64,000 bases of DNA from Verrucomicrobiota bacterium JB024 (GCA_030673825.1 JAUTCS010000145.1:1-64000), one strand, 5' to 3'; shown: positions 15,602 through 27,996, counted from the stretch's first letter. Translations and numbers: made by a program. The notes: generated from the sequence alone by a model not told the origin.

Positions 15602-16480
15602 CTATCGCAGGCCCAGTCCGTAACGCTCCTGCGCCTGAAGCGCGGCGGACTTCATCTCCATTGAGGCCAGGAAATCGGTCAGCGCGGGCGTATCCGGCTG
15701 TTCGACGGTCAACGCGGGAATCTCAAAGGTGTCTTTCAGGCGTACCAGCTCCAGGTTACGGCTCAGCAGCTCTCCCGAGGCCGGTAGAATCTCACGGAAG
15801 CGTGGGGGCTTGATCTCGGCCGCTTTGGCCAGCACCCCGGCGATATTCCCATACTCGGCGATCCACTTCGAGGCGGTCTTCGGCCCGACGCCGACCAGCC
15901 CGGCGATATTGTCCGAGACATCCCCGACCAGTGCGAGATAGTCGGGAATCTGCGCCGGAGTTACGCCAAACTTTTTCACCACGCCTTCGGCATCCAGCCG
16001 ACGCCAGCCCAAGCGGGGGTTGGCCGTCGGGGCCGGAAGCAATTGGTGGATGTGCTCATTCACGAGCTGGGCCAGGTCCTTGTCGGCGCTGACGACGACA
16101 GCCTTTTGCTCCGGCCCAGCCATTTGCCGGGCAGCGGAGGCGATCAGGTCGTCGGCCTCGACCCCGCAACGGGAGATGACCGGGTAGCCCATGAGCCGCG
16201 TGATCTCGCGGATCGACTCCATCTGCGCGCGCAGGGCCTCGGGCATCTCGTCCCGGTTGGCCTTATACTCGGGCAGGAGCTCCAGGTGGCGATCCGAGCC
16301 CCCCTCGTCGAAAAAGACGGCCAAGCGGTCGGGCCGCTCCATGTCCTCAAGCTTCCAGAGCGTCTTGACCCAGCCGTGGAGGGCCCCGGTAGGCACGCCG
16401 TCGCTGCGGGTCAGGTCAGGCAGCGCGTAGTAGCTGCGGAACGCAAGATTGAAGCCGTCCAGGAGGAGCACTTTCGCCAT
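15602..16480 (-). CDS. stand-alone 5'-3' exonuclease (Pol I N-domain / FEN type)
   Basis: A 292-aa protein matching the 5'-nuclease domain of DNA polymerase I without the polymerase. Metal-ligand acidic motifs are visible: LLDGFNLAFRSYYALP at the N-terminus, GVEADDLIAS in the middle, and VVSADKDLAQLV. The helix-hairpin-helix region is GDVSDNIAGLVGVGPKTASKW. It probably removes RNA primers or flap structures. Related stand-alone proteins include ExoIX/Xni. It is followed on the minus strand by the convergent response regulator. Confidence 0.88.
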   Translation of the reverse strand: MAKVLLLDGFNLAFRSYYALPDLTRSDGVPTGALHGWVKTLWKLEDMERPDRLAVFFDEGGSDRHLELLPEYKANRDEMPEALRAQMESIREITRLMGYPVISRCGVEADDLIASAARQMAGPEQKAVVVSADKDLAQLVNEHIHQLLPAPTANPRLGWRRLDAEGVVKKFGVTPAQIPDYLALVGDVSDNIAGLVGVGPKTASKWIAEYGNIAGVLAKAAEIKPPRFREILPASGELLSRNLELVRLKDTFEIPALTVEQPDTPALTDFLASMEMKSAALQAQERYGLGLR

Positions 16481-16500: not shown

Positions 16501-16538
16501 AAAAAAAGGCGGCAAGACCAATCCGGTCCTGCCGCCTG
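16501..16538 (-). terminator. intrinsic terminator of the secretin operon
   Basis: Stem AGGCGGCAAGACC / GGTCCTGCCGCCT (16507-16519 and 16525-16537, one mismatch) with a short loop. On the minus strand it is followed by seven T. It sits 23 bp beyond the secretin stop codon and ends the five-gene locus. Confidence 0.85.
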
Positions 16539-16560: not shown

Positions 16561-19368
16561 TTACTCGGACACTTCGCGGCTGATACCGCCGCCGGGGGTC
16601 ACAATAATCGGATTCTGGAAGAGCGAGTTGGCCTCGACGTTGCGCAGGCGCTGGCCGCTCGGCGAACCTCCGGGGGAGATCAGGTTGGCGGTGACGAAGA
16701 TCAGCAGGTTCTTCTTCGAGGAGGTTTCACCCTTGGACTGGAACAGACGGCCCAGCAGCGGGATGTCGCCAAGAAGCGGCACCTTGTCATTGACCGTCTT
16801 GACCTCTTCGCGGGTCAGACCACCGATGACCACCGTGGCGCCATCATACACGGTCACTTCCGTGCGGACTTCGCGGGTGCTGAAGATCGGCTGGTAGAAG
16901 CCCGAGGGAACCGACACCGTGGTGCCACCGGAGATAGCCACACTGGTACCGCCGTATTCGACGAACCCTTCAAACTCGGTCACGCGGGGCTCGAGCTTGA
17001 GCGAAATGTTCTGGTTTTCTTCGACCGTGGGGGTCACTTCCATTTCCACACCGACGTTGCGGACGGTGAAGTCCTGCGGCGTACCGGCGGTGATGGTAAC
17101 ACCGGCGGAACCACCCGTGGTGCTAGTCGAGGTACCGACTTCAGATTCGATGTCGCTGTAGTTTTCCGGATAGCGCAGTTCCTGGGCGACCACGATCTGG
17201 GCGGTACGACCCGAGAGAACCGTCAGGCGGGGCGAGCTCAGGAGGTCGCTGCCTTGCTTGCGAGAGAGAGCGGTGATCAGCATCTGGATATTGGCACCAC
17301 CGATACCGAAGGTCACATCGGCAGCCAAGCCGCCGGACGTACCGAGGTCGATCGTGTTCGGCAGGCTCGGGGGGCTTTGCGCATAGGTCTTGGTGCTCGC
17401 CGGGACAGTCACAGGAGGTGTGGTGTCGGTGGTGTATCCCTGCTGCTCGATGATCAGGTTGCTGGACGCCGAGTTGATGCTGAACGCACTGGAGAGGTTC
17501 CGGTTGGCGGTACTGACCGTTGAAATGCCGCCCGTGGTCGGGAAATTAACATTCCAGTTGAAGTTCATTTCGTCGAGGACGCCCTGATTGACTTCGAGGA
17601 ACTTGGCTTCGATTTCGACCTGCTTGGGCTGGTCGTAGCGGCGCAGAATGTTGCGCATCTTTTCCAGGTTCTTCGGGGTCTGGGTCACAATCAGCTGGGT
17701 ACCGTCAAAGGCGAGGCTGGAACCGCTGGTGCTCTCGAAGGGCACACCGGCCTTGGTAAAGAACTGGAGCAGGGCCGCTTCCGTATCGGAGCTGCTGCTG
17801 GTGCTGCCGCCGCCGGTAGTAGCCGGGGCAAAGGGATCGGCCGCAGCCTTGCTGCCACCACCGGAATCACCACCGACACCGGTCAGGCGAATAACCACTC
17901 CGCGGGAAATCGGGAAGAACTCGGTTTCCAGGTAGTTGCCTTCGTCACCGGGGCGCACCACCACGGCGTCGTTCTGCACGTCCCAAGTGTAGTCCACCGA
18001 GCCCGTCACGAAGTCGAGGATCTTGTCCAGGCTGAGGTTACGCAGCGTGATGCTGACCATCGGGTCGTTGCCGCCCCAGTTGGCCGGGACGATGTTCACG
18101 CCTCTGTCCTTCGCATCTTCGGTGGTCTTGTCGTAATCGACGGACAGTTCGGAAAGGGTTTCCACCACGCGGGAGAGCGGGACCTGGGCGAAGCTGACGC
18201 GGGGGATCTCGATCTTGGCGAGCTTCTGCAGCAGGGTCGTGCCACGATCCGGGCCGACTTCGGGAGGCGTCAACTGGAAAATCTGCGGGCGCTGCCACGA
18301 GCGAGCAACTTCCTGCAGCATTTCGTCGCGGGTCTTGGAATGGTCGAGGTAATTGGTGTCCTTGAGCTGGCGCATGATCTCGACCTGGAGCCCCTTGGCC
18401 GCGGCATTGTTCGGGTCGCGGGCTTCGATCTCGCGCAGGGTGGAGGAAGAGCCTTCGTAATCGCCATAAAGCATCTGAGCGCGAGCCTTGATCATGAGTT
18501 GGTCAACAACGGCCTGGTTGCTCATGAACTCGGGGCTGAGCTTTTCGGGATCCTGGTACCAGGGATCGTCTTCGAGGGCGGTCACCTTGGCTTCAAAAGC
18601 ACGGGCGCGTTCGTCGTCACCAAGCTTCTCACGGTACTGGGTGAGATAGATGGTGGCTTCGGCGGCGTTGTGGTCCTTGAGGGCGGCGTTGCCCTGATCA
18701 AGGATGATATCGCCACGCAGTTCGCGAATCTTTTCGATGGTCGAAGCAGTGGCGGTGTTGAGGGTCAGGGAATTCTGGGCTTCAGTCAGCAGCGCGTCGG
18801 CATCGGCATAACGCTCGGCCTTGATCAGCTTCTTGGCGTCGGCGATGGCTTCCTTGGCCATGCCCAGGGCCATGTCCTGAGTGGCGGCTTCGGCTTCGAG
18901 GACGGCGTCGAGCTCGGAAGTGGGCTCACCGGTCGGGGTCGGAACGACATACTCCTCAGCGTCGGTGATCATCTCGCCATTGGGGTTCTCGGCGACGGCA
19001 ACCACGGTCGTGGCCTGAACGCCATTGGAGCTGCTCGAAGAGGGGCTGAACTCCTCCACTGCGGCGGCCTGGCCGTAAACGGTCGGCTGGCCCTGATCAC
19101 GGCGCTCGATGTCCTTGTTGACCGCCAGCAGGAGGCGTTGGACATTGACGTCGTTGGGCGAAAGGCGGAGCAGCTCTTCCAAGTTGGCCTTGGCGGCATC
19201 GAGGTCACCAGCGTCGCGAGCACGGATCGCGGTGGACATCAGGCGGATCTTTTCCTGCGTGTCACTGCTTTGGGCCATCGAGGGGGTGGCCAGAAAAGCC
19301 TGACCCATCAGCACAAATGCCAAGCAGGCAAGCGTCATCAGGCGAGGGAGTTTTAGGATGTTTGTCAT
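16561..19368 (-). CDS. secretin, PilQ/GspD type (Amuc_1098-like)
   Basis: Outer-membrane channel subunit. The 935-aa protein begins with a signal peptide (about residues 1-32, ending ATPSMAQ). It continues with a long helical, TPR-like region (35-380; AMSTAIRARDAGDLDAAKAN-like pattern near its start). N0 and N1-type domains follow (IPRVSFAQVPLSRVVETL; VTQTPKNLEKMRNILRRYD). The secretin core carries GGLTREEVKTVNDKVPLLG and IPLLGRLFQ. It lacks the AMIN domains of many PilQ proteins; the tetratrico-like N-terminus is as in Akkermansia Amuc_1098. The ATG at 19368 gives a proper signal peptide. It is the last gene of the operon and is followed by a terminator. Confidence 0.88.
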   Translation of the reverse strand: MTNILKLPRLMTLACLAFVLMGQAFLATPSMAQSSDTQEKIRLMSTAIRARDAGDLDAAKANLEELLRLSPNDVNVQRLLLAVNKDIERRDQGQPTVYGQAAAVEEFSPSSSSSNGVQATTVVAVAENPNGEMITDAEEYVVPTPTGEPTSELDAVLEAEAATQDMALGMAKEAIADAKKLIKAERYADADALLTEAQNSLTLNTATASTIEKIRELRGDIILDQGNAALKDHNAAEATIYLTQYREKLGDDERARAFEAKVTALEDDPWYQDPEKLSPEFMSNQAVVDQLMIKARAQMLYGDYEGSSSTLREIEARDPNNAAAKGLQVEIMRQLKDTNYLDHSKTRDEMLQEVARSWQRPQIFQLTPPEVGPDRGTTLLQKLAKIEIPRVSFAQVPLSRVVETLSELSVDYDKTTEDAKDRGVNIVPANWGGNDPMVSITLRNLSLDKILDFVTGSVDYTWDVQNDAVVVRPGDEGNYLETEFFPISRGVVIRLTGVGGDSGGGSKAAADPFAPATTGGGSTSSSSDTEAALLQFFTKAGVPFESTSGSSLAFDGTQLIVTQTPKNLEKMRNILRRYDQPKQVEIEAKFLEVNQGVLDEMNFNWNVNFPTTGGISTVSTANRNLSSAFSINSASSNLIIEQQGYTTDTTPPVTVPASTKTYAQSPPSLPNTIDLGTSGGLAADVTFGIGGANIQMLITALSRKQGSDLLSSPRLTVLSGRTAQIVVAQELRYPENYSDIESEVGTSTSTTGGSAGVTITAGTPQDFTVRNVGVEMEVTPTVEENQNISLKLEPRVTEFEGFVEYGGTSVAISGGTTVSVPSGFYQPIFSTREVRTEVTVYDGATVVIGGLTREEVKTVNDKVPLLGDIPLLGRLFQSKGETSSKKNLLIFVTANLISPGGSPSGQRLRNVEANSLFQNPIIVTPGGGISREVSE

Positions 19369-19413
19369 GTGCGAGGTAACGTAGATCAGCAATACTTACG
19401 CTGAGGTGACTGA

Positions 19414-20364
19414 TTAATTAAAAAAGTTAAAAGCTTCCGGCAAATTAGTATCACTTTGCGGAGTGCTTGGCGTATTTTTTTCTTCGGGTTGAGGCTCGGG
19501 GTTCGTTTTAACGGGGGTAAGTACCTTGACGATCGGCTCCGGCTCGGTGCCGTCTTCAGTAGCAGAGGGGAGTTTCTCGACGGTTGCCGTCTGGTTGTCA
19601 AAGTTAAACTCCTCTAAAGTGAAGGTGGCATCGTCAAACGTTTTCTTATCGCCAACATTGGTCCAGGTGAAGCTCTCCGGCGCGTAAGGCTCGGTCGTGG
19701 ACATGTTGATTTCGTACTTGTTGGGCACGTAGAGGCGCTCGGCGGTCGTCAGGGTGAGGTTCTCACCGCTGCGGGTATCCTTGATCACCACGGTCGGGTA
19801 GCGGAAGATCTCGGTGGAGCCCTCCGTCTCGATTTCCTTACGCTCAACCTTGAAGGAAAGGATCTCGAAGTCCTGCGCGGGGAACTTGTCGCCGACGCTG
19901 CCACGGATGGTCTCGTGGTTCTCGTGGTTGTAGAACTGCACGATGGCGTGGTCGAAGTTGCCGTCGTTGGACTCAAAGTAGGCCTCGAACTGGATGCGGA
20001 AAAGTTCGCGGTTGAGGCTGTTGAGCACCAGACCGAAGGGCGGCGGCGGCGGAATGTCGTCGGGGCCGAGGGGCGCATCCCAGGTCAATTGGCCGAGGGT
20101 CGGGTCCCAGTAGATCTTGGGCGGCGTGAAGACCTGATAAATACGGTTCGGGTTGTCGTCCACCGGTTTGACATTGGGCCAGTCCGTGGCGCCGGTTTCG
20201 ACCGGTGTCGGGACGGGGACCGGCTCGAAGGCCGCGCCCGTGGGTTTGCCGCTGAGAGCCTTGCTCTCGGGGCCGCTCTGGCCTCCCATGAAGTAGAAGG
20301 CCAGGGAACCGGCCAGCAACAGCAACGCGACAACTAAAAGGATCTTATCGTAAAACTTGTTCAT
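19414..20364 (-). CDS. membrane-anchored pilus/secretion accessory protein (Amuc_1099-like position)
   Basis: A 316-aa protein with one N-terminal transmembrane segment (about residues 5-27: ILLVVALLLLAGSLAFYFMG). A Pro-rich linker follows, then a mixed alpha/beta extracytoplasmic region with WDPTLGQLTWDAPLGPDD, and a Pro/Thr/Glu-rich C-terminus. No enzyme motif is visible. By position between the PilO-like protein and the secretin it occupies the place of PilP in type IV pilus operons and of Amuc_1099 in Akkermansia. That correspondence rests on gene order. It is 12 bp downstream of the Amuc_1100-like gene. Confidence 0.65.
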   Translation of the reverse strand: MNKFYDKILLVVALLLLAGSLAFYFMGGQSGPESKALSGKPTGAAFEPVPVPTPVETGATDWPNVKPVDDNPNRIYQVFTPPKIYWDPTLGQLTWDAPLGPDDIPPPPPFGLVLNSLNRELFRIQFEAYFESNDGNFDHAIVQFYNHENHETIRGSVGDKFPAQDFEILSFKVERKEIETEGSTEIFRYPTVVIKDTRSGENLTLTTAERLYVPNKYEINMSTTEPYAPESFTWTNVGDKKTFDDATFTLEEFNFDNQTATVEKLPSATEDGTEPEPIVKVLTPVKTNPEPQPEEKNTPSTPQSDTNLPEAFNFFN

Positions 20365-20376
20365 GCGGCAGTCCGA

Positions 20377-21435
20377 TTACTGGGGGTTCTGCGACGAGGT
20401 GGCGTTCTCCAGGGCCGCCACATCGGACGGGGCCTGGACGAGAACTTTGATGTACTCGACCACGACGGTGAACTGCGAAAGGTTCTCCTCCACGATGGGC
20501 TCCTTGGCAGCGGCCTTCTGTTCCTCAGTGGGAGCAGTGGTGCCGCCAGTATCGAAGAGGTCGAAGGGGCTCGACGCGCGGCTCGAAGAGCTGGAGGCCG
20601 CGGCTTTCTTTTCGGCAGGCTGGACCTCGACGCTGCGCACTACCAGGGGCAGCTCGAACTCTTCCAGACTCTTCAGAAAATCACGCAGGCTCTGGGTATA
20701 GCCGGTGAAGACCAGGCGGAAGGCGACCGTCTCGACCGCGCCGGGGACGCGGGCGCTGAGGCCACCGATTTCAAACTCGTCGTTGTTACCCTTGCCGGCG
20801 TTCTGCTGCTTGCTCTGCTTGTTGCCCGGTTGCGGCTGGGCGGCGGCAACATCCTCGACCACGACCTCGCGCTGGATCTGCACGAGCGAGAAGGGGCGGC
20901 TGTCGTAGAGCTTGCGAAGGACGTAACTGAGAATCTCCTTCTGTTCGAAAACCTCGGGGATGAACTTGGCCGGGGGCGGCGTACCGGAGGAAAGGAAGCG
21001 CGAGAAGCCGAACTCGAAGTCCTTGGGCAGAGCCATGCCGACGTCACCCTTTTTCGCACCCTGAGGCTCGATCTCGGCGGCGTCCTTGGTGAACTGCTCC
21101 TTGAAGGCTTCTAGCTGGAAGAGCATGTCGGCCTCGGTCTTGGGCACGTCCTTGGAGATGAAGGTCGGCACGCGGCCCTTGGTGTCATCCACCTGAGTCT
21201 GGAGGGCGGCGGCGAGAGCCTCGACGTTTTTCTCGGAGGTCTCGACGTTCTGCTCGGTCGGCGCGGGACTCAGCCCGAGAGCGGACTTGTAGCTGCGCTC
21301 GGCCTGCTCGTAGCTCTTCTGAGCCTTGCCCAGGCTGGACCAGGACAGGAAAATGAAGACCAGTCCCGCTATGAATAGCAGGACGAACACGGTGACCAGG
21401 CTGGCGAAGGCAGGGTATTTTTTAAAGAAGCCCAT
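20377..21435 (-). CDS. PilO-like inner-membrane protein (Amuc_1100-like)
   Basis: A 352-aa protein: short cytoplasmic N-terminus (MGFFKKYPAF), one transmembrane helix (about 11-33), and a coiled-coil region (about 35-110, SLGKAQKSYEQAERSYKSAL). A ferredoxin-like periplasmic domain follows (about 215-275 with FRLVFTGYTQSLRDFLKSLE and LPLVVRSVEVQP). This is the PilO/GspM plan and that of Amuc_1100, the Akkermansia protein studied for host effects; Amuc_1100 itself is somewhat shorter. A Ser-rich low-complexity stretch precedes the C-terminal strand. It starts 9 bp after the PilM-PilN gene. Confidence 0.75.
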   Translation of the reverse strand: MGFFKKYPAFASLVTVFVLLFIAGLVFIFLSWSSLGKAQKSYEQAERSYKSALGLSPAPTEQNVETSEKNVEALAAALQTQVDDTKGRVPTFISKDVPKTEADMLFQLEAFKEQFTKDAAEIEPQGAKKGDVGMALPKDFEFGFSRFLSSGTPPPAKFIPEVFEQKEILSYVLRKLYDSRPFSLVQIQREVVVEDVAAAQPQPGNKQSKQQNAGKGNNDEFEIGGLSARVPGAVETVAFRLVFTGYTQSLRDFLKSLEEFELPLVVRSVEVQPAEKKAAASSSSSRASSPFDLFDTGGTTAPTEEQKAAAKEPIVEENLSQFTVVVEYIKVLVQAPSDVAALENATSSQNPQ

Positions 21436-21444
21436 GTTCGGAAA

Positions 21445-23082
21445 TCAGAGGGGTTTTTCCGGATTGGTGATAAGGTTGAACTCGAACTTGAGGATGCGCG
21501 GGTTCGAGTTGTCGAACTTGATGTTCGCCACCCGGTCGATGAACTCAGAGTCGGCGAAACTGTCCAGCAGGGTGTTGACGCGGTCCGCAGCTTGGCGGGC
21601 GCTCTCGGTCGGACTGTCCGGATTGTAATTGGTGATAAGGATCCGGCCGGTCATCTTCACCCGGTCGCCGGAGGCGCGGTCGAGCTGGAGATTTTCGAGC
21701 CAGACATCCTGCACGTCCTGCAGGCGCTGCTGCAGGTCCGTAAAGAACACGATCCAGTTGGAGCGGGAGTTGACGAGTTCTTCGAGGTTGCCGACATCCT
21801 TGCTCAACTGCTGAGCCTTGTCGCGATTCGCGACGATCTCGCTGTGCAGCTTGTTGAGGGGGGCGACTTTGCTCTGGATCTGCCGAGCGGCGTCCTTGTA
21901 TTCGGTCGCCGTGCTCTTGAAAGCGAGGATCGGCGGAACGGTGGCCAGCGCCAGCAGGATGGCCGCGATGGCGATAAAGGGGCGCTGCTTGGCGAAGCGC
22001 ATCTCGTCGGCCAAGCCGGGAGGCAGCAGGTTGATGCTGACGGCGTCCGGCTGGACCAGTTGGGCGGCCTCACCGATGACTTCACCCAGCGAGTACAGGT
22101 TGTCCCCGAGTTCGTCCTTGTCCAGCTTGCCGCCGGTGTGGACGTTCTGAAGCGGGTCGAAGTACTCGACCGGCACCTTTTGCTGTTCACTGAGAAACTC
22201 GGCCAGGCCGGGCAGAAGGGAACCGCGACCAGTCAGCAGGATGCGGGTCGGGGCCTTGGCGCCGTGCTGACGGCGGAAATTGACGATCGAGCGGGTGATG
22301 TCCTGGCTGATGCGGCGCTGGAAGATCTGCGCGTTGTTCTGCAGGATCTGCACCGAGGGGTGATCGGGCTCGTAGCTGGTCTGGCCAGAGAAGAAGGCGA
22401 CCTTGACCGTTTCGGCTTCGTTAAACTTCTTGCCGAGGTTGTCCGCAAGGTTCTGGGTCAGGGAATTGCCGCCCAGGGCGATATTACGGATAAAGAAGCC
22501 CGCTTCATTAATAAAGATCAGGTTCGAGGAGCGCGCGCCGATGTTAACCAGCAGGGTGTCCTCGTCGTCCTCGTAGTTGAGCTTGTAGGCGTTGTAATCG
22601 AGGATGGACGCCGCCGGGATGCGGGACGGGGAGATGCCATAGCCGCCGATCTGCTGGCAGAAGCTGTTGATAACGTCTGACTTGATGGCGATGAGGATAA
22701 CCTCGGTTTCGACACCGTCGTCGGAGATCACCTGATAATCCCAGACCACATCGGAGAGCGGATACGGGATGTTCTGCTGCGCCTCGAAGGCGATGATCTG
22801 CGCCTGCTTGGCAGCCTCGACGTGGGGCACCTTGATCGTCTTGGTCAGCAGCTGGTAGCCGGGGGCGATCAGGGTGGCGGGGCCGTGGAACTTGTTACGG
22901 CGGAGGATGTCACCAAGCTTGACCGTCAGCGCACTCAGCCATTCCTCATCGATCGAGTAATCGTAGTCGAGTTCCTCGATCACGAAGTCCTCAAGCATGA
23001 GGTCTCCGCTGTTAACGGAGAATGTCGAGACGGACACGTGGCTGGCACCACAATTAATAATCAGGGTCTTGGAAGCACTCAT
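21445..23082 (-). CDS. PilM-PilN fusion protein (Amuc_1101-like)
   Basis: A 545-aa protein joining two pilus-platform parts. Residues 1-335 form an actin/FtsA-like ATPase domain of the PilM type (LIINCGASHVSVSTF, TLLVNIGARSSNLIFI, ILLTGRGSLLPGLAEFL). After a linker comes one transmembrane helix (about 365-385: PFIAIAAILLALATVPPILA), then coiled coil. A PilN-like ferredoxin fold ends the protein (about 430-545: WIVFFTDLQQRLQDVQDVWL, VKMTGRILITNYN). In Proteobacteria these are two proteins. It would link the cytoplasmic ring to the PilO/secretin complex. Followed closely by the PilO-like gene. Confidence 0.82.
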   Translation of the reverse strand: MSASKTLIINCGASHVSVSTFSVNSGDLMLEDFVIEELDYDYSIDEEWLSALTVKLGDILRRNKFHGPATLIAPGYQLLTKTIKVPHVEAAKQAQIIAFEAQQNIPYPLSDVVWDYQVISDDGVETEVILIAIKSDVINSFCQQIGGYGISPSRIPAASILDYNAYKLNYEDDEDTLLVNIGARSSNLIFINEAGFFIRNIALGGNSLTQNLADNLGKKFNEAETVKVAFFSGQTSYEPDHPSVQILQNNAQIFQRRISQDITRSIVNFRRQHGAKAPTRILLTGRGSLLPGLAEFLSEQQKVPVEYFDPLQNVHTGGKLDKDELGDNLYSLGEVIGEAAQLVQPDAVSINLLPPGLADEMRFAKQRPFIAIAAILLALATVPPILAFKSTATEYKDAARQIQSKVAPLNKLHSEIVANRDKAQQLSKDVGNLEELVNSRSNWIVFFTDLQQRLQDVQDVWLENLQLDRASGDRVKMTGRILITNYNPDSPTESARQAADRVNTLLDSFADSEFIDRVANIKFDNSNPRILKFEFNLITNPEKPL

Positions 23083-23167
23083 GCGGGGAGTCAGGGGTTT
23101 TCCAGGCGTTCAGGCGGCAGGGCAAGTAAAATCTTCACGGCGATACGGTTATATCACCTATTTGCGA

Positions 23168-23761
23168 TTACTTCGGCTCTTTGCGAATAAATGCCGGGGG
23201 AGAACGGTCAACCGGGGCGTAAGGGGAGAGGTAGTAAGGCACCAGAATGCCTTCGGTCTTCGAAGCCTCGGAGTTGGCGCGGTTCAGGAAATTCTGGGCG
23301 GCAGCCAGGTCTGAAATGCTGCTGGAGGTGTTGGGCTTGTCCATCGGGACGGCCTTACCGTCCACGGTCAGCTCGATGATCCAGTAGTCCGGCTCATTGG
23401 CCAGATCGCCACGCTCAACGATGTCGTAGGGGATCCAGAAGGCCAGGAGCTTGTCCTGATTGACCTCGAGGGTGGCGATGGTCGCCTCGGACTGGAGGAA
23501 GTAAAAGGTGTTCTCGCGGCGGTCGATCAGGTAGCCGAGGGTGACGCGGATGCCGACATTATCGACGTACTTCTCATTGTACGCTTTGGGGTCGGGGTTC
23601 TCGATCGCGCGCAGCTTGACCGTCACATTGTTCCAGCGGTAGTTACCGACGCTATTGTTAAAATCTACGTCTGCGACCACCACAGGACGCTCCTGGGCGT
23701 GAAGGTTAAGAAGACCGGCGAAAATGAACAAGAGGGGGAGGAAGCAACGAAACATGGTCAT
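23168..23761 (-). CDS. small periplasmic protein of the pilus locus (Amuc_1102-like)
   Basis: A 197-aa protein with a signal peptide (about 1-22, ending LNLHAQ) and a beta-rich mature part (VVVADVDFNNSVGNYRWNNV, YWIIELTVDGKAV). No cysteine pair or enzyme motif is seen. It is the first gene of the five-gene operon, as Amuc_1102 is in Akkermansia. That protein is reported to have an immunoglobulin-like fold. Start chosen at 23761 (MTMFRCFLPL); a start two codons later is equally possible. The role is unknown. A chaperone or minor structural part of the machine is an inference. Confidence 0.65.
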   Translation of the reverse strand: MTMFRCFLPLLFIFAGLLNLHAQERPVVVADVDFNNSVGNYRWNNVTVKLRAIENPDPKAYNEKYVDNVGIRVTLGYLIDRRENTFYFLQSEATIATLEVNQDKLLAFWIPYDIVERGDLANEPDYWIIELTVDGKAVPMDKPNTSSSISDLAAAQNFLNRANSEASKTEGILVPYYLSPYAPVDRSPPAFIRKEPK

Positions 23762-23889: not shown

Positions 23890-24387
23890 ATGGATTCCGA
23901 CCTGCCTTTTCGCATCAGCGTGCTACTTTTTATCCGGGACGAAGCCGGGCGGCTGCTGCTCATCGAGCGCCGCAAGGCCCCCAATCTGGGCTGCTGGAGC
24001 CCCGTCGGGGGGAAGCTGGAAATGGCCCGGGGCGAGTCTCCCTACGAGTGCGCCATCCGCGAAATGCAGGAAGAAACCGGGCTGGTGGCCACCGAAAAGG
24101 ACCTCCACCTGTTCGCCATGATCTCGGAAAAGGGCTACGAGGGCTCCGGCCACTGGCTGATGTTCCTGTTCGACTGCCACAAGCCGCTCAAGGCCCTGCC
24201 GCCTGAGATCGACGAGGGCCCGATGGCCTTTTTCACCCGCGAGGAGGTGGATGGGCTCAAAGTGCCCCCCTCGGACCGCCATTTGATCTGGCCCAACTAT
24301 GACCGGCACAGATCCGGCTTCATCGCGCTGCGGGCCGATTGTCAGCCCGAAACCGATTTACAAATTGTTGTTGAAGAAAAACACTAG
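23890..24387 (+). CDS. Nudix hydrolase
   Basis: A 165-aa cytosolic pyrophosphohydrolase of nucleoside diphosphate derivatives. The Nudix box is visible as GKLEMARGES followed by REMQEETGL with the correct seven-residue spacing between the Glu and the REx2-3EE core. Two additional residues lie in the first half compared with the canonical G-x5-E. The N-terminal ISVLLFIRDEAGRLLLIERR is typical of the fold. Substrate cannot be predicted. It is divergent from the pilus locus and 65 bp upstream of pdhA. Confidence 0.88.
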   Translation: MDSDLPFRISVLLFIRDEAGRLLLIERRKAPNLGCWSPVGGKLEMARGESPYECAIREMQEETGLVATEKDLHLFAMISEKGYEGSGHWLMFLFDCHKPLKALPPEIDEGPMAFFTREEVDGLKVPPSDRHLIWPNYDRHRSGFIALRADCQPETDLQIVVEEKH

Positions 24388-24452
24388 CTGATCCACAGTC
24401 GTCAGCCCTGAACGCCGGGCTCTCACTTACCCGGCCAACACTACTTCATGCC

Positions 24453-25559
24453 GTGAGCAGCGAAACCGATATCTATAAAAAGCCTGAATACGTCAGCGTC
24501 ATGCCCGACACGGATTACTCCGATGCCGAGGTCAACAAGGTCCTCACCCCGGAGCAAAAGATCCAGCTCTACCGGGACATGGTCCGCATCCGCCGCTTCG
24601 AGGAGCGCAGCATCCGGGTGTACCAACAAGGCAAGATCGGGGGCTTTCTTCACCTTTACATCGGCCAGGAAGCCATCGCCGTCGGCACGGTTTCGCTCCT
24701 GGGCGCCGACGACCACGTCATCACCGCCTACCGCGACCACGGGCACGCCCTGGCCGTGGGCATGAACATGAACGAGTGCATGGCCGAGCTTTGCGGCAAG
24801 CACACCGGCTGTTCCAAGGGCAAGGGCGGGTCCATGCACTTTTTCGCCCCGGACAAGAACTACTGGGGCGGGCACGGCATCGTCGGCGGGCAGACCCCGC
24901 TGGGCGCCGGGATCGCCTACGCCCTCAAGTACCGCGGCCTGAAGGGTTGCTGCCTGTGCTTCATGGGGGACGGGGCCGTCAACCAGGGCGCCGTGCACGA
25001 AGCTTTCAACCTCGCCCAGCTCTGGGAGCTGCCGGTCATTTACGTGATCGAGAACAACGGCTACTCCATGGGCACGAGCCAGGTGCGCTCCTCCGCCTTT
25101 AACGAGTACCTGGCCAAGCGGGCCGAGGGCTACGCCATGGCCTGGGACGTCGTCAACGGCAACGACATCTACAGCGTCCGCGCCGCCACCGCCGAGGCCA
25201 TCAAGCGCGCCCACAACGAGTCCATGCCCACCCTGCTGGAGATCATCACCTACCGCTACCGCGGCCACTCCATGTCCGACCCGGACAAGACCTACCGCGA
25301 AAAGAAGGAGATCCAGGACTACAAGGAAAAGAAGGACCCGATCACGGTTTTCCAAAATATCCTGCTGGCCGAAAAGGTTCTCACCGACGACCTCATCCAG
25401 TCCATCGACAAGGAGGCCCGCCAGGAGGCCGAGGACGCCGCCAACTTCGCCGACCAGAGCCCCTTCCCCCCCGAGGAGTCCATCCTTGAGGACATCTACT
25501 GGGAGGAAGACAACCGCTCCGAGGAGACCACCTCGCAGGGAACCATCATCTTTGAATAA
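24453..25559 (+). CDS. pdhA: pyruvate dehydrogenase E1 alpha subunit
   Basis: Thiamine-diphosphate-dependent decarboxylase part of the pyruvate dehydrogenase complex. The 368-aa product shows the TPP-binding motif GDGAVNQGAVHEAFN ending in ENN, the segment GGHGIVGGQTPLGAG, and the YRYRGHSMSDPDKTYR phosphorylation-loop-like segment of E1 alpha. The start is a GTG at 24453 giving a 30-residue leader before the conserved core. A later start is possible. It is followed after 33 bp by pdhB and then pdhC, forming an operon. The E3 subunit is not in the window. Confidence 0.95.
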   Translation: MSSETDIYKKPEYVSVMPDTDYSDAEVNKVLTPEQKIQLYRDMVRIRRFEERSIRVYQQGKIGGFLHLYIGQEAIAVGTVSLLGADDHVITAYRDHGHALAVGMNMNECMAELCGKHTGCSKGKGGSMHFFAPDKNYWGGHGIVGGQTPLGAGIAYALKYRGLKGCCLCFMGDGAVNQGAVHEAFNLAQLWELPVIYVIENNGYSMGTSQVRSSAFNEYLAKRAEGYAMAWDVVNGNDIYSVRAATAEAIKRAHNESMPTLLEIITYRYRGHSMSDPDKTYREKKEIQDYKEKKDPITVFQNILLAEKVLTDDLIQSIDKEARQEAEDAANFADQSPFPPEESILEDIYWEEDNRSEETTSQGTIIFE

Positions 25560-25592
25560 CCGGCGCACGCGCCCCTAATCTTTTTTGTCCCA

Positions 25593-26567
25593 ATGGCTCA
25601 GATCACTTACCGCCAGGCAATCAACGACGCTCTCAGCGAAGAGGTCGAACGCGACGAAAACGTCGTCATCATGGGTGAGGAAGTCGCCCAGTTTGACGGC
25701 GCCTACAAAGTCACCGAAGGCATGCTCAAACGCTTCGGCCCGAAGCGCATCGTGGACACCCCGATCTCCGAGGCCGGCTTCATCGGCATGGGCATCGGCG
25801 CGGCCATGCTCGGCATCCGCCCCGTCATGGAGCTGATGTTCTGGAGTTTCTCCTACGTGGCCTTTGACCAGCTCTGCAACAACGCCGCCGCCGTGCGCTA
25901 CATGTCCGGCGGCCTCATCAACTGCCCGATCGTCGTACGCGGCCCGGCCAACGGCGGCACCAACGTCGGCGCCACCCACTCCCACACACCGGAGAACCTG
26001 GTGGCCAACCACCCCGGCATCAAGGTTGTCTGCCCGTCCAACGCCTACGACGCCAAGGGCCTGATGAAGACCGCCATCCGCGACAACGACCCGGTCTTCG
26101 TCATGGAGAACACCATCCTTTATAATGACAAGTGGGAGGTGCCCGAAGAGGAGTACCTCGTCCCGCTGGGCAAGGCCAACCTCCTGCGCGAGGGCAAGGA
26201 TCTCTCCATCATCGCCCACGGCCGCGCCGCCATCACCTCGCTGCGCGCCGCCGAGGAACTCAAGGCCAAGCACGACATCGACGTGGAAGTGCTCGACCTG
26301 CGGTCCATCCGCCCCCTCGACGAGGAAGCCATCCTCGAAACCGTGAAAAAGACCAACAACGTCCTGCTGGTCGAGGAAAACAAGCCCTTCTGCGGCGTCG
26401 GCGCCCAGATATCCTTCCTCATCCAGGAAAAGGCCTTCGACCACCTCGACGCCCCGATCCGTCGGATCAGCTCCATCGACGCCCCGCAGATTTACTGCAA
26501 AAAGCTCGAAGACATCCAGATCCCCAGCGTCGCCCGCGTCGTCAACAAGGTGCTGGAAATGGCGTAA
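25593..26567 (+). CDS. pdhB: pyruvate dehydrogenase E1 beta subunit
   Basis: A 324-aa transketolase-like partner of PdhA. Conserved patterns are visible: MGEEVAQFDGAYKVTEGM, DTPISEAGFIGMGIGAAM, and the C-terminal domain LRSIRPLDEEAI with ENKPFCGVGAQI. Together with E1 alpha it forms the alpha2beta2 heterotetramer typical of bacteria with separate E1 subunits. A 40-bp gap precedes pdhC. Branched-chain keto-acid E1 is the main alternative, made unlikely by the companion genes but not excluded by sequence alone. Confidence 0.95.
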   Translation: MAQITYRQAINDALSEEVERDENVVIMGEEVAQFDGAYKVTEGMLKRFGPKRIVDTPISEAGFIGMGIGAAMLGIRPVMELMFWSFSYVAFDQLCNNAAAVRYMSGGLINCPIVVRGPANGGTNVGATHSHTPENLVANHPGIKVVCPSNAYDAKGLMKTAIRDNDPVFVMENTILYNDKWEVPEEEYLVPLGKANLLREGKDLSIIAHGRAAITSLRAAEELKAKHDIDVEVLDLRSIRPLDEEAILETVKKTNNVLLVEENKPFCGVGAQISFLIQEKAFDHLDAPIRRISSIDAPQIYCKKLEDIQIPSVARVVNKVLEMA

Positions 26568-26607
26568 GCCTCACGCCGAACAAAACCATTTATCTAATTA
26601 CAGAGCC

Positions 26608-27996
26608 ATGGCCGAGATTATCGAAATGCCCAAACTGAGCGACACCATGACGGTGGGCACGCTCGTGAACTGGTTGAAGAAGGAGGGCGACGAAGTCGCT
26701 TCCGGCGACATGATTTGCGAAGTGGAGACCGACAAGGCCACCATGGAGGTCGAGTGTTTCGCGGACGGCGTCATGCTCAAGCAGTACGTCGCCGAGGGCG
26801 GGGAAATCCCCGTCGGTGCGCCCATGTGCGCGGTCGGCCAGAAGGGCGAAGAGCCCCCCGCTGTCGATACCGGTGCCATCGCCGAGAAGGCCGAAGAGCT
26901 GAAAAAGGAAGAGGCCGACTCCGAGGACAAGCCGACCGAAAAGCCCGAAGAGGCCCCCACCCAACCGGCTCCGGCCCAGCCTACCGGCGGCGCCAAGCCC
27001 CAGCCCGAAGGCCGCAAGCAGGAGTTCATCCCCGAGGACGAGGAAGGCGCTTCTGCTCCGGCCAAGTCCGAAGGGGGCCGCGTCAAGGTCTCTCCCCTCG
27101 CCCGCAAGCTGGCCGAGGAAAAGGGCATTCCGCTCGAAGCCATCACCGGCACCGGCCCGAACGGCCGCATCGTGAAGAAGGACGTGCTCAAGGCCGCCGA
27201 AGAGGGCGTCAAGGCCCCGGCCAAGCAGCCCGCCACCTCGTCGGCCCCTGCCGCCCCGGCCCAGTACGTGCCCGCGGGCGCTCCCATCGCCGAGGAAGGC
27301 CCGATCAAGGTCACCAATATGCGCAAGGCCATCGCCACGCGCCTGGTCGAGTCCAAGACCACCATCCCGCACTTTTACCTGGAGATCGAGGTCGATGCCG
27401 CCCCGCTGCTGGCCCTGCGCGCCGAGATCAACCACCACCTCTCCAACCGCGCTCCTGAGGAGGGCGGCATCAAGCTGACCGTCAACGACTTCATCCTTAA
27501 GGCCACGACCGAGGCCCTGCGCCGCGTGCCGGGCGTCAACGCATCCTGGATGGGCGACTCCATTCAGCAGCACGGGGGCGTTCACATGGCCTTCGGGGTG
27601 GCGGTCCCGGACGGGCTTGTCACGCCGGTCATCCGCGACGCCCACGCCAAGACCCTGCGCCAGATCAGCATCGAAACCAAGGAGCTGATCCAGAAGGCCC
27701 GCAACAAGAAGCTGACTCCCAACGAGATGAGCGGCTCGACCTTTACCGTGACGAACCTCGGCATGTACGGCACGGGCGGCTTCTACGGCATCATCAATCC
27801 GCCCAACGCCGCCATCCTCTCCGTCGGCGCGACGATCAAGAAGCCCGTCGTGGACAAGGACGGTAACATCGTCGTGGGCCAACGCATGGGCATCGGCCTC
27901 TCCTGCGACCACCGCGTGATCGACGGGGCCACCGGGGCGGAGTTCCTCCACGCGCTCCAGGCTGTGCTGGAAAGCCCGGCTCTCATGCTCGTCTGA
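26608..27996 (+). CDS. pdhC: pyruvate dehydrogenase E2, dihydrolipoamide acetyltransferase
   Basis: Core of the complex, transferring acetyl from lipoate to CoA. The 462-aa protein has a single N-terminal lipoyl domain (1-75) with the lipoylated Lys43 in ETDKATMEVE. An Ala/Pro/Glu-rich linker follows, then a peripheral-subunit-binding domain (about 150-190, RVKVSPLARKLAEEKGIPLE). The catalytic domain ends with SCDHRVIDGATGAEFL containing the active-site His. A strong terminator is found 43 bp after the stop, closing the pdhABC operon. Confidence 0.95.
   Translation: MAEIIEMPKLSDTMTVGTLVNWLKKEGDEVASGDMICEVETDKATMEVECFADGVMLKQYVAEGGEIPVGAPMCAVGQKGEEPPAVDTGAIAEKAEELKKEEADSEDKPTEKPEEAPTQPAPAQPTGGAKPQPEGRKQEFIPEDEEGASAPAKSEGGRVKVSPLARKLAEEKGIPLEAITGTGPNGRIVKKDVLKAAEEGVKAPAKQPATSSAPAAPAQYVPAGAPIAEEGPIKVTNMRKAIATRLVESKTTIPHFYLEIEVDAAPLLALRAEINHHLSNRAPEEGGIKLTVNDFILKATTEALRRVPGVNASWMGDSIQQHGGVHMAFGVAVPDGLVTPVIRDAHAKTLRQISIETKELIQKARNKKLTPNEMSGSTFTVTNLGMYGTGGFYGIINPPNAAILSVGATIKKPVVDKDGNIVVGQRMGIGLSCDHRVIDGATGAEFLHALQAVLESPALMLV

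Follow-up and report, generated by a model that had tools for sequence, protein, structure and literature searches.

We analyzed a 64,000-nucleotide stretch of DNA from Verrucomicrobiota bacterium JB024 (GCA_030673825.1, JAUTCS010000145.1:1-64000; hereafter the window, contig C145), in which five consecutive open reading frames (ORFs) on the minus strand, from 23761 to 16561, encode homologs of Akkermansia muciniphila Amuc_1102 to Amuc_1098, that is, of the MUL2 locus and its secretin. This locus very probably encodes the half of a type IV pilus-type machine that spans the envelope and supplies its alignment complex and gate, and four of the five genes resemble the standard version of that half. 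The motor that would drive it is encoded on another contig of the same genome (C88). The host genome (G000; 4.6 Mb in 163 contigs) is metagenome-assembled and belongs to the order Opitutales, in agreement with an initial annotation of the window that had placed the locus in a verrucomicrobial genome other than Akkermansia. Genomes (G), contigs (C) and loci (L) carry our own numbers throughout.

Homology and spread of the five-gene locus

The initial annotation had recognized the composition and order of Amuc_1102-Amuc_1098, and this held in full: all five genes have homologs there, lie on one strand, and are closed by a terminator. In order of transcription, with gaps of 85, 9, 12, and 21 bp between genes and protein lengths in amino acids (aa), the features are:

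23168..23761, minus strand: Amuc_1102-like (MUL2A-like) protein of 197 aa, exported, with an Ig-like/beta-sandwich fold; the gene is first in the operon, and the Sec signal peptide ends in LHAQ
21445..23082, minus strand: Amuc_1101-like PilM-PilN fusion, 545 aa; PilM at ~1-340, INLLP at 350-354, transmembrane (TM) segment at ~370-390, periplasmic PilN-like part
20377..21435, minus strand: Amuc_1100-like, PilO/GspM-like, inner-membrane anchored periplasmic protein, 352 aa; TM segment at ~13-31
19414..20364, minus strand: Amuc_1099-like protein, most likely PilP/GspC-like, 316 aa; TM helix at 2-30, linker, predicted beta domains (HR-like at ~110-208, a second at ~212-285)
16561..19392, minus strand: Amuc_1098-like PilQ-type secretin, 943 or 935 aa; TPR-like N-terminal region, Secretin domain at 708-905
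16507..16537, minus strand: intrinsic terminator at the operon's end; 14-pair stem with a 3-nt loop, run of T

The secretin starts at a TTG at 19392 (943 aa) or, more likely, at an ATG at 19368 (935 aa). Position 16561, where the initial annotation began the locus, is its stop codon, and the terminator (16537-16507), the strongest among the sites scanned, lies just beyond that boundary.

Profile searches gave Amuc_1098_fam, Amuc_1101_fam, and Amuc_1100_fam as the best NCBIfam matches of three of the proteins. The secretin scored 401 bits (E 8e-120) with the first of these, 157 bits with GspD, and 132 bits with PilQ, and matched Pfam Secretin at E 8e-38. The 545-aa protein scored 346 bits (E 4e-103) and matched PilM_2 (E 1e-22), with a PilN-type INLLP motif directly ahead of its TM segment; weak matches to T2SSL and PilN occurred in 5 and 1 of 29 Amuc_1101 family members, respectively. 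The 352-aa protein reached 88.7 bits (E 4.6e-25), with weak matches to GspM/XpsM (E 0.0017) and T2SSM_b. Single-sequence profile scans returned no match for the 316- and 197-aa proteins, and neither did single-sequence PDB searches with these two and the 352-aa protein. When Opitutales-only alignments were compared with Verrucomicrobiales-only alignments, profile-profile values were 97% for 1102, 96% for 1099, and 99.5% for 1100, against 0.2-3.5% in cross-family negative controls, so that the proposed kinship of the 352- and 316-aa proteins with Amuc_1100 and Amuc_1099 was recovered for both. The locus shares with that of A. muciniphila its five homologous genes, their order and strand, the PilM-N fusion, and an exported first protein, but differs in sequence, with identities of 24% in the PilM-N fusion and, for 1102, 1100, and 1099 aligned as profiles, 13-19%.

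Of 288 Verrucomicrobiota genomes, 223 held the Amuc_1100 family, and 146 of these 223 belong to classes other than that of the window's genome; a control set of 14 well-known genomes gave one sub-threshold match. Amuc_1101 family matches occurred in 276 of the 288, the weakest being generic PilM. We then compared 79 loci, from the window and 78 other genomes chosen around Amuc_1100- or Amuc_1101-family matches, by iterative profile searches seeded only with the window proteins. Homologs of 1101 were detected in 79/79 loci, those of 1102 in 65, and those of the secretin, 1100, and 1099 in almost every locus. The order 1102-1101-1100-1099-1098 was intact in 61 loci (for example in G074, L120, with all five genes), and the arrangement is therefore not due to chance. 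The remaining 18 comprised 13 loci lacking only a detectable 1102, three without a secretin, one with 1102-1101-1100 only, and one with 1100 and 1099 in overlapping ORFs. One locus in the set (L091), recognized as Akkermansia by strong matches of its 1100 to PDB entries 6lad and 6kny and of its 1102 to 7dsz, anchored the comparison.

Given this phylum-wide distribution and the Opitutales host, the earlier suggestion of an ancestral envelope machine rather than a gut adaptation is supported, and on this sequence evidence the locus is an old, general device of the Verrucomicrobiota, not a gut invention. This was already known in part: the locus has been described in aquatic Akkermansiaceae and other Verrucomicrobiales, in fewer Chthoniobacterales, and in no Methylacidiphilales (Wilkie et al., 2026, PMC13174399). 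The MUL2 loci described there resemble ours in synteny, non-gut hosts, and the conclusion of an ancestral locus. Our locus differs in its Opitutales host, an order that the portion of the paper we consulted does not mention; our survey also extends to other classes, and we assign 1099 to PilP/GspC.

A probable PilP/GspC-like protein at the Amuc_1099 position

The 316-aa protein, described initially as a second single-anchor protein, does have an N-terminal TM anchor, and we refine its identity to most likely PilP/GspC-like, which would complete a pilM-N-O-P-Q set. This assignment rests on structure prediction and gene position, not on sequence. The AlphaFold model (predicted local distance difference test score, pLDDT, 84) combined an N-terminal TM helix with beta domains. 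Foldseek returned no significant match to it, a PulC chain appearing at E 0.57. When the 988 top Foldseek chains were re-aligned to the model by VIA, 3jc8_Pa, from a type IVa pilus machine model, ranked first (Z 8.1, 73 residues), 6hcg_e, the HR domain of PulC, second (Z 6.8, 66 residues), and an unrelated chain third (Z 4.7). We read chain Pa of 3jc8 as PilP because chains Ma and Qa of this entry carry the names PilM and PilQ. In pilMNOPQ operons, pilP sits between pilO and the secretin gene, and the 1099 gene, between the PilO-like and secretin genes, occupies this canonical position. If 1099 is PilP-like, the operon would thus read 1102 + pilMN-pilO-pilP-pilQ, in canonical order.

A Pfam scan of 48 Amuc_1099 family members yielded no PilP or T2SSC match, and butyrophilin matches were discarded, being confined to the TM and linker stretch. 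A bacterial TSP3 repeat of the calcium-binding type (E to 3e-10) was present in 8 of these 48 aligned relatives (e.g., L241, L247, L262), apparently within the linker ahead of the HR-like domain; none was seen in the window protein, which we list among the differences from the Akkermansia locus. Amuc_1099 and amuc_1100 are called uncharacterised in PMC13174399, and Amuc_1100 is named PilO in another paper; the predicted PilP/GspC-like fold at the Amuc_1099 position is new here.

With the type IVa PilM-PilN-PilO-PilP-PilQ complex, the locus has in common the gene order, the PilM domain, the PilN-type INLLP before a TM segment, the predicted PilP-like HR fold, and the secretin. It differs in that PilM and PilN are fused, an exported 1102 gene stands in front, the PilP-like protein is anchored by a TM helix, like GspC, and carries a second beta domain, and the secretin has a TPR-like N-terminal region.

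A candidate motor encoded apart from the locus

No pilB, pilC, or pilin gene adjoins the five-gene block, as the initial annotation had stated in proposing a reduced or divided system. Our genome search showed that the machine is divided, not reduced: PilB, PilC, PilT, prepilin peptidase (PilD), and prepilins are all present elsewhere in the genome. Contig C88 carries the cassette coaE-rho-pilB1-pilT-pilB2-pilC, with two paralogous PilB genes (L027:8489-13079), and the single prepilin peptidase match lies on C31. Prepilin-type N-termini (E <= 1) numbered 80 in this genome and 7 in each of two Akkermansia genomes.

The arrangement pilB1-(pilT)-pilB2-pilC, with pilT varying in position, recurred in the window's genus, in Opitutales, in Verrucomicrobiales including Akkermansia, and in other classes. 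In a tree, the PilB1 and the PilB2 sequences separated completely into two groups, and across the phylum the stretch before GEIRD read QAPN in PilB1 versus QDPD in PilB2, with the motif not found in two PilB2 rows. The genes coaE and rho stand ahead of the motor on C88, as they do in five further motor loci from Opitutales (L170, L172-L175). In Akkermansia and several loci of other lineages, one or both genes follow 1098 instead, coaE usually together with rho; coaE-rho thus adjoins the five-gene locus in Akkermansia but the motor in the window's genome, where it is not adjacent to the block. As neighbors of 1098 in some lineages and of the motor in others, these genes tie the two halves to one neighborhood. 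We looked in 20 additional downstream stretches for one super-operon in which the motor follows 1098-coaE-rho directly, and found none; only in L158 did a pilB1 lie downstream, at ~6.5 kb.

The two halves also co-occurred. Of 18 genomes that carry the locus, 16 had a tandem pilB pair, whereas among 20 genomes chosen for lacking it, one had an intact pair (G108), two had pairs broken by stops or fragmented (G283, G121), and 17 had none (Fisher p ~1e-5 with decayed pairs counted as present and 1.5e-7 as absent, relatedness being ignored in both). The two genomes with decayed pilB-pilT-pilB sets (G121:C1:1030276-1036489, G283:C65:95529-99565) have no clear five-gene locus either, as though cassette and locus were being lost in parallel. 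Akkermansia G024 had only one pilB pair, and also a second Amuc_1098-type secretin of 841 aa (L269:7900-10425), standing alone without pilM-N-O-P neighbors.

Several observations weigh against the proposed machine. G046 and G211 have the locus without a tandem pilB pair, and G108 the pair without the locus. A second, divergent pilM-N-O-P-Q-like set on C105 (L032:3352-8251) could share the C88 motor, and further ATPase and PilC fragments lie at contig ends of the window's genome. The PilP likeness is structural only, and its Z of 8.1 is not far above what common arrangements may attain. Finally, the window proteins score below the NCBIfam equivalog cut-offs of 750, 180, and 650 bits for Amuc_1098, Amuc_1100, and Amuc_1101, a further difference from the Akkermansia locus, to which ours is homologous, by profiles, synteny, and structure, without being classed as an equivalog. 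Each of the cut-offs for Amuc_1100 and Amuc_1101 was passed in 29 of the 288 genomes.

Given two alignment complexes in the genome and a C88 motor linked to neither, the five-gene block might be motor-less, a static adhesive or transport pore, with the motor serving the C105 set. We consider this improbable, since Akkermansia keeps the pilB1-pilB2-pilC motor, yet has no C105-type set beside its second secretin, and since the coaE-rho link and the co-occurrence connect the motor with the 1098-1102 locus. As to the C105 set itself, no motor gene was called alongside it, and orthologs were seen in G128 and G045 but not next to the second secretin of Akkermansia G024.

The block could also be the secretin and inner-membrane arm of an enzyme-exporting type II secretion system, with pseudopilins and no surface fiber. 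PilMNOPQ proteins are homologous to GspC-D-L-M; the block and such a system share a homologous secretin, a predicted HR domain, and a GspM-like protein; 1100 matches GspM profiles, 1099 resembles the PulC HR domain, and 1098 scores higher with GspD than with PilQ. However, C117 of this genome bears a Gsp-type operon apart from the block, which includes a secretin, an ATPase, and a PilC-type gene of its own, and C20 bears another. Moreover, PilM is a full FtsA-like domain, which is the pilus arrangement, and the motor cassette includes the PilT retraction ATPase in Opitutales. No GspE/F/G-type gene was found among the window ORFs around the block. Taken together, this makes a type II secretion system an unlikely identity for the block, and we retain the type IV pilus-type machine.

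By eye, the flanks of the operon look ordinary, with a 5'-3' exonuclease-like gene past the terminator (window 15602-16480); on the upstream side lie genes of pyruvate dehydrogenase type and a Nudix-like one (window 23890-27996).

The exported first protein and the proposed machine

The 197-aa protein yielded a high-scoring AlphaFold model (pLDDT 89), whose sole Foldseek PDB matches at E<1e-3 were three chains of 7dsz (Amuc_1102); by VIA, model and 7dsz aligned with Z 14.9 over 163 residues. An Opitutales-only 1102 profile did not reach 7dsz in hmmsearch. A wider profile did, but it includes Verrucomicrobiales members, and for this reason the 1102 identity rests on the fold search and the profile-profile comparison.

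The N-termini of the 1102 family were Sec-like and ended in A-x-A-Q in at least 50 of 65 members by a crude pattern, with a prepilin-type motif in 1 of 65; the window protein itself has an ordinary Sec signal and no prepilin leader. In eight Opitutales genomes that keep pilMN-O-P-Q, 1102 was not detected genome-wide, and in G172 its gene has been relocated away from the operon. The Sec-type signal and this loss or relocation make 1102 probably an exported accessory and not a pilin. One might take 1102 for the pilin subunit of the fiber, given that it is reported to resemble archaeal type IV pilins and comes first in the operon. This is very unlikely, as a protein matured by signal peptidase I would lack the N-terminal helix on which pilin packing depends, and some Opitutales genomes with a pilMN-O-P-Q set do without 1102 or encode it elsewhere.

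In the machine we propose, the PilM-N fusion would dock at the cytoplasm and inner membrane, the PilO-like (1100) and PilP-like (1099) proteins would form the periplasmic link, and the PilQ-type secretin (1098) would be the outer-membrane gate, with 1102 as an exported accessory. The C88 motor, with its two paralogous PilB ATPases, PilT, and PilC, would assemble and retract a filament whose pilins come from some of the genome's many prepilins after processing by the single prepilin peptidase. These parts would together form one machine making a retractable fiber. For the Akkermansia locus, a role in glycan attachment or uptake is reported in PMC13174399; by analogy, the fiber may serve polysaccharide attachment or uptake here.

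More tentatively, the Verrucomicrobiota ancestor may have possessed one dedicated polysaccharide-handling type IV machine, with fused PilM-N, PilO, PilP, PilQ, and 1102 as an exported glycan-side accessory, and a two-ATPase motor in which PilB1 had an altered Asp-box stretch (QAPN for QDPD). The host-active Amuc_1100 would then be an internal PilO, and its effect on the host a by-product.

Amuc_1100 has been studied as a gut-active, probiotic-like protein, and its operon is a phylum-wide PilMNOPQ-type block. What were hypothetical proteins become a testable machine with a candidate motor located, in which Amuc_1099 is likely PilP and Amuc_1102 probably not a pilin. Free-living relatives in the Opitutales may thus offer a setting in which pilus, secretion, and glycan uptake functions could be tested against each other.
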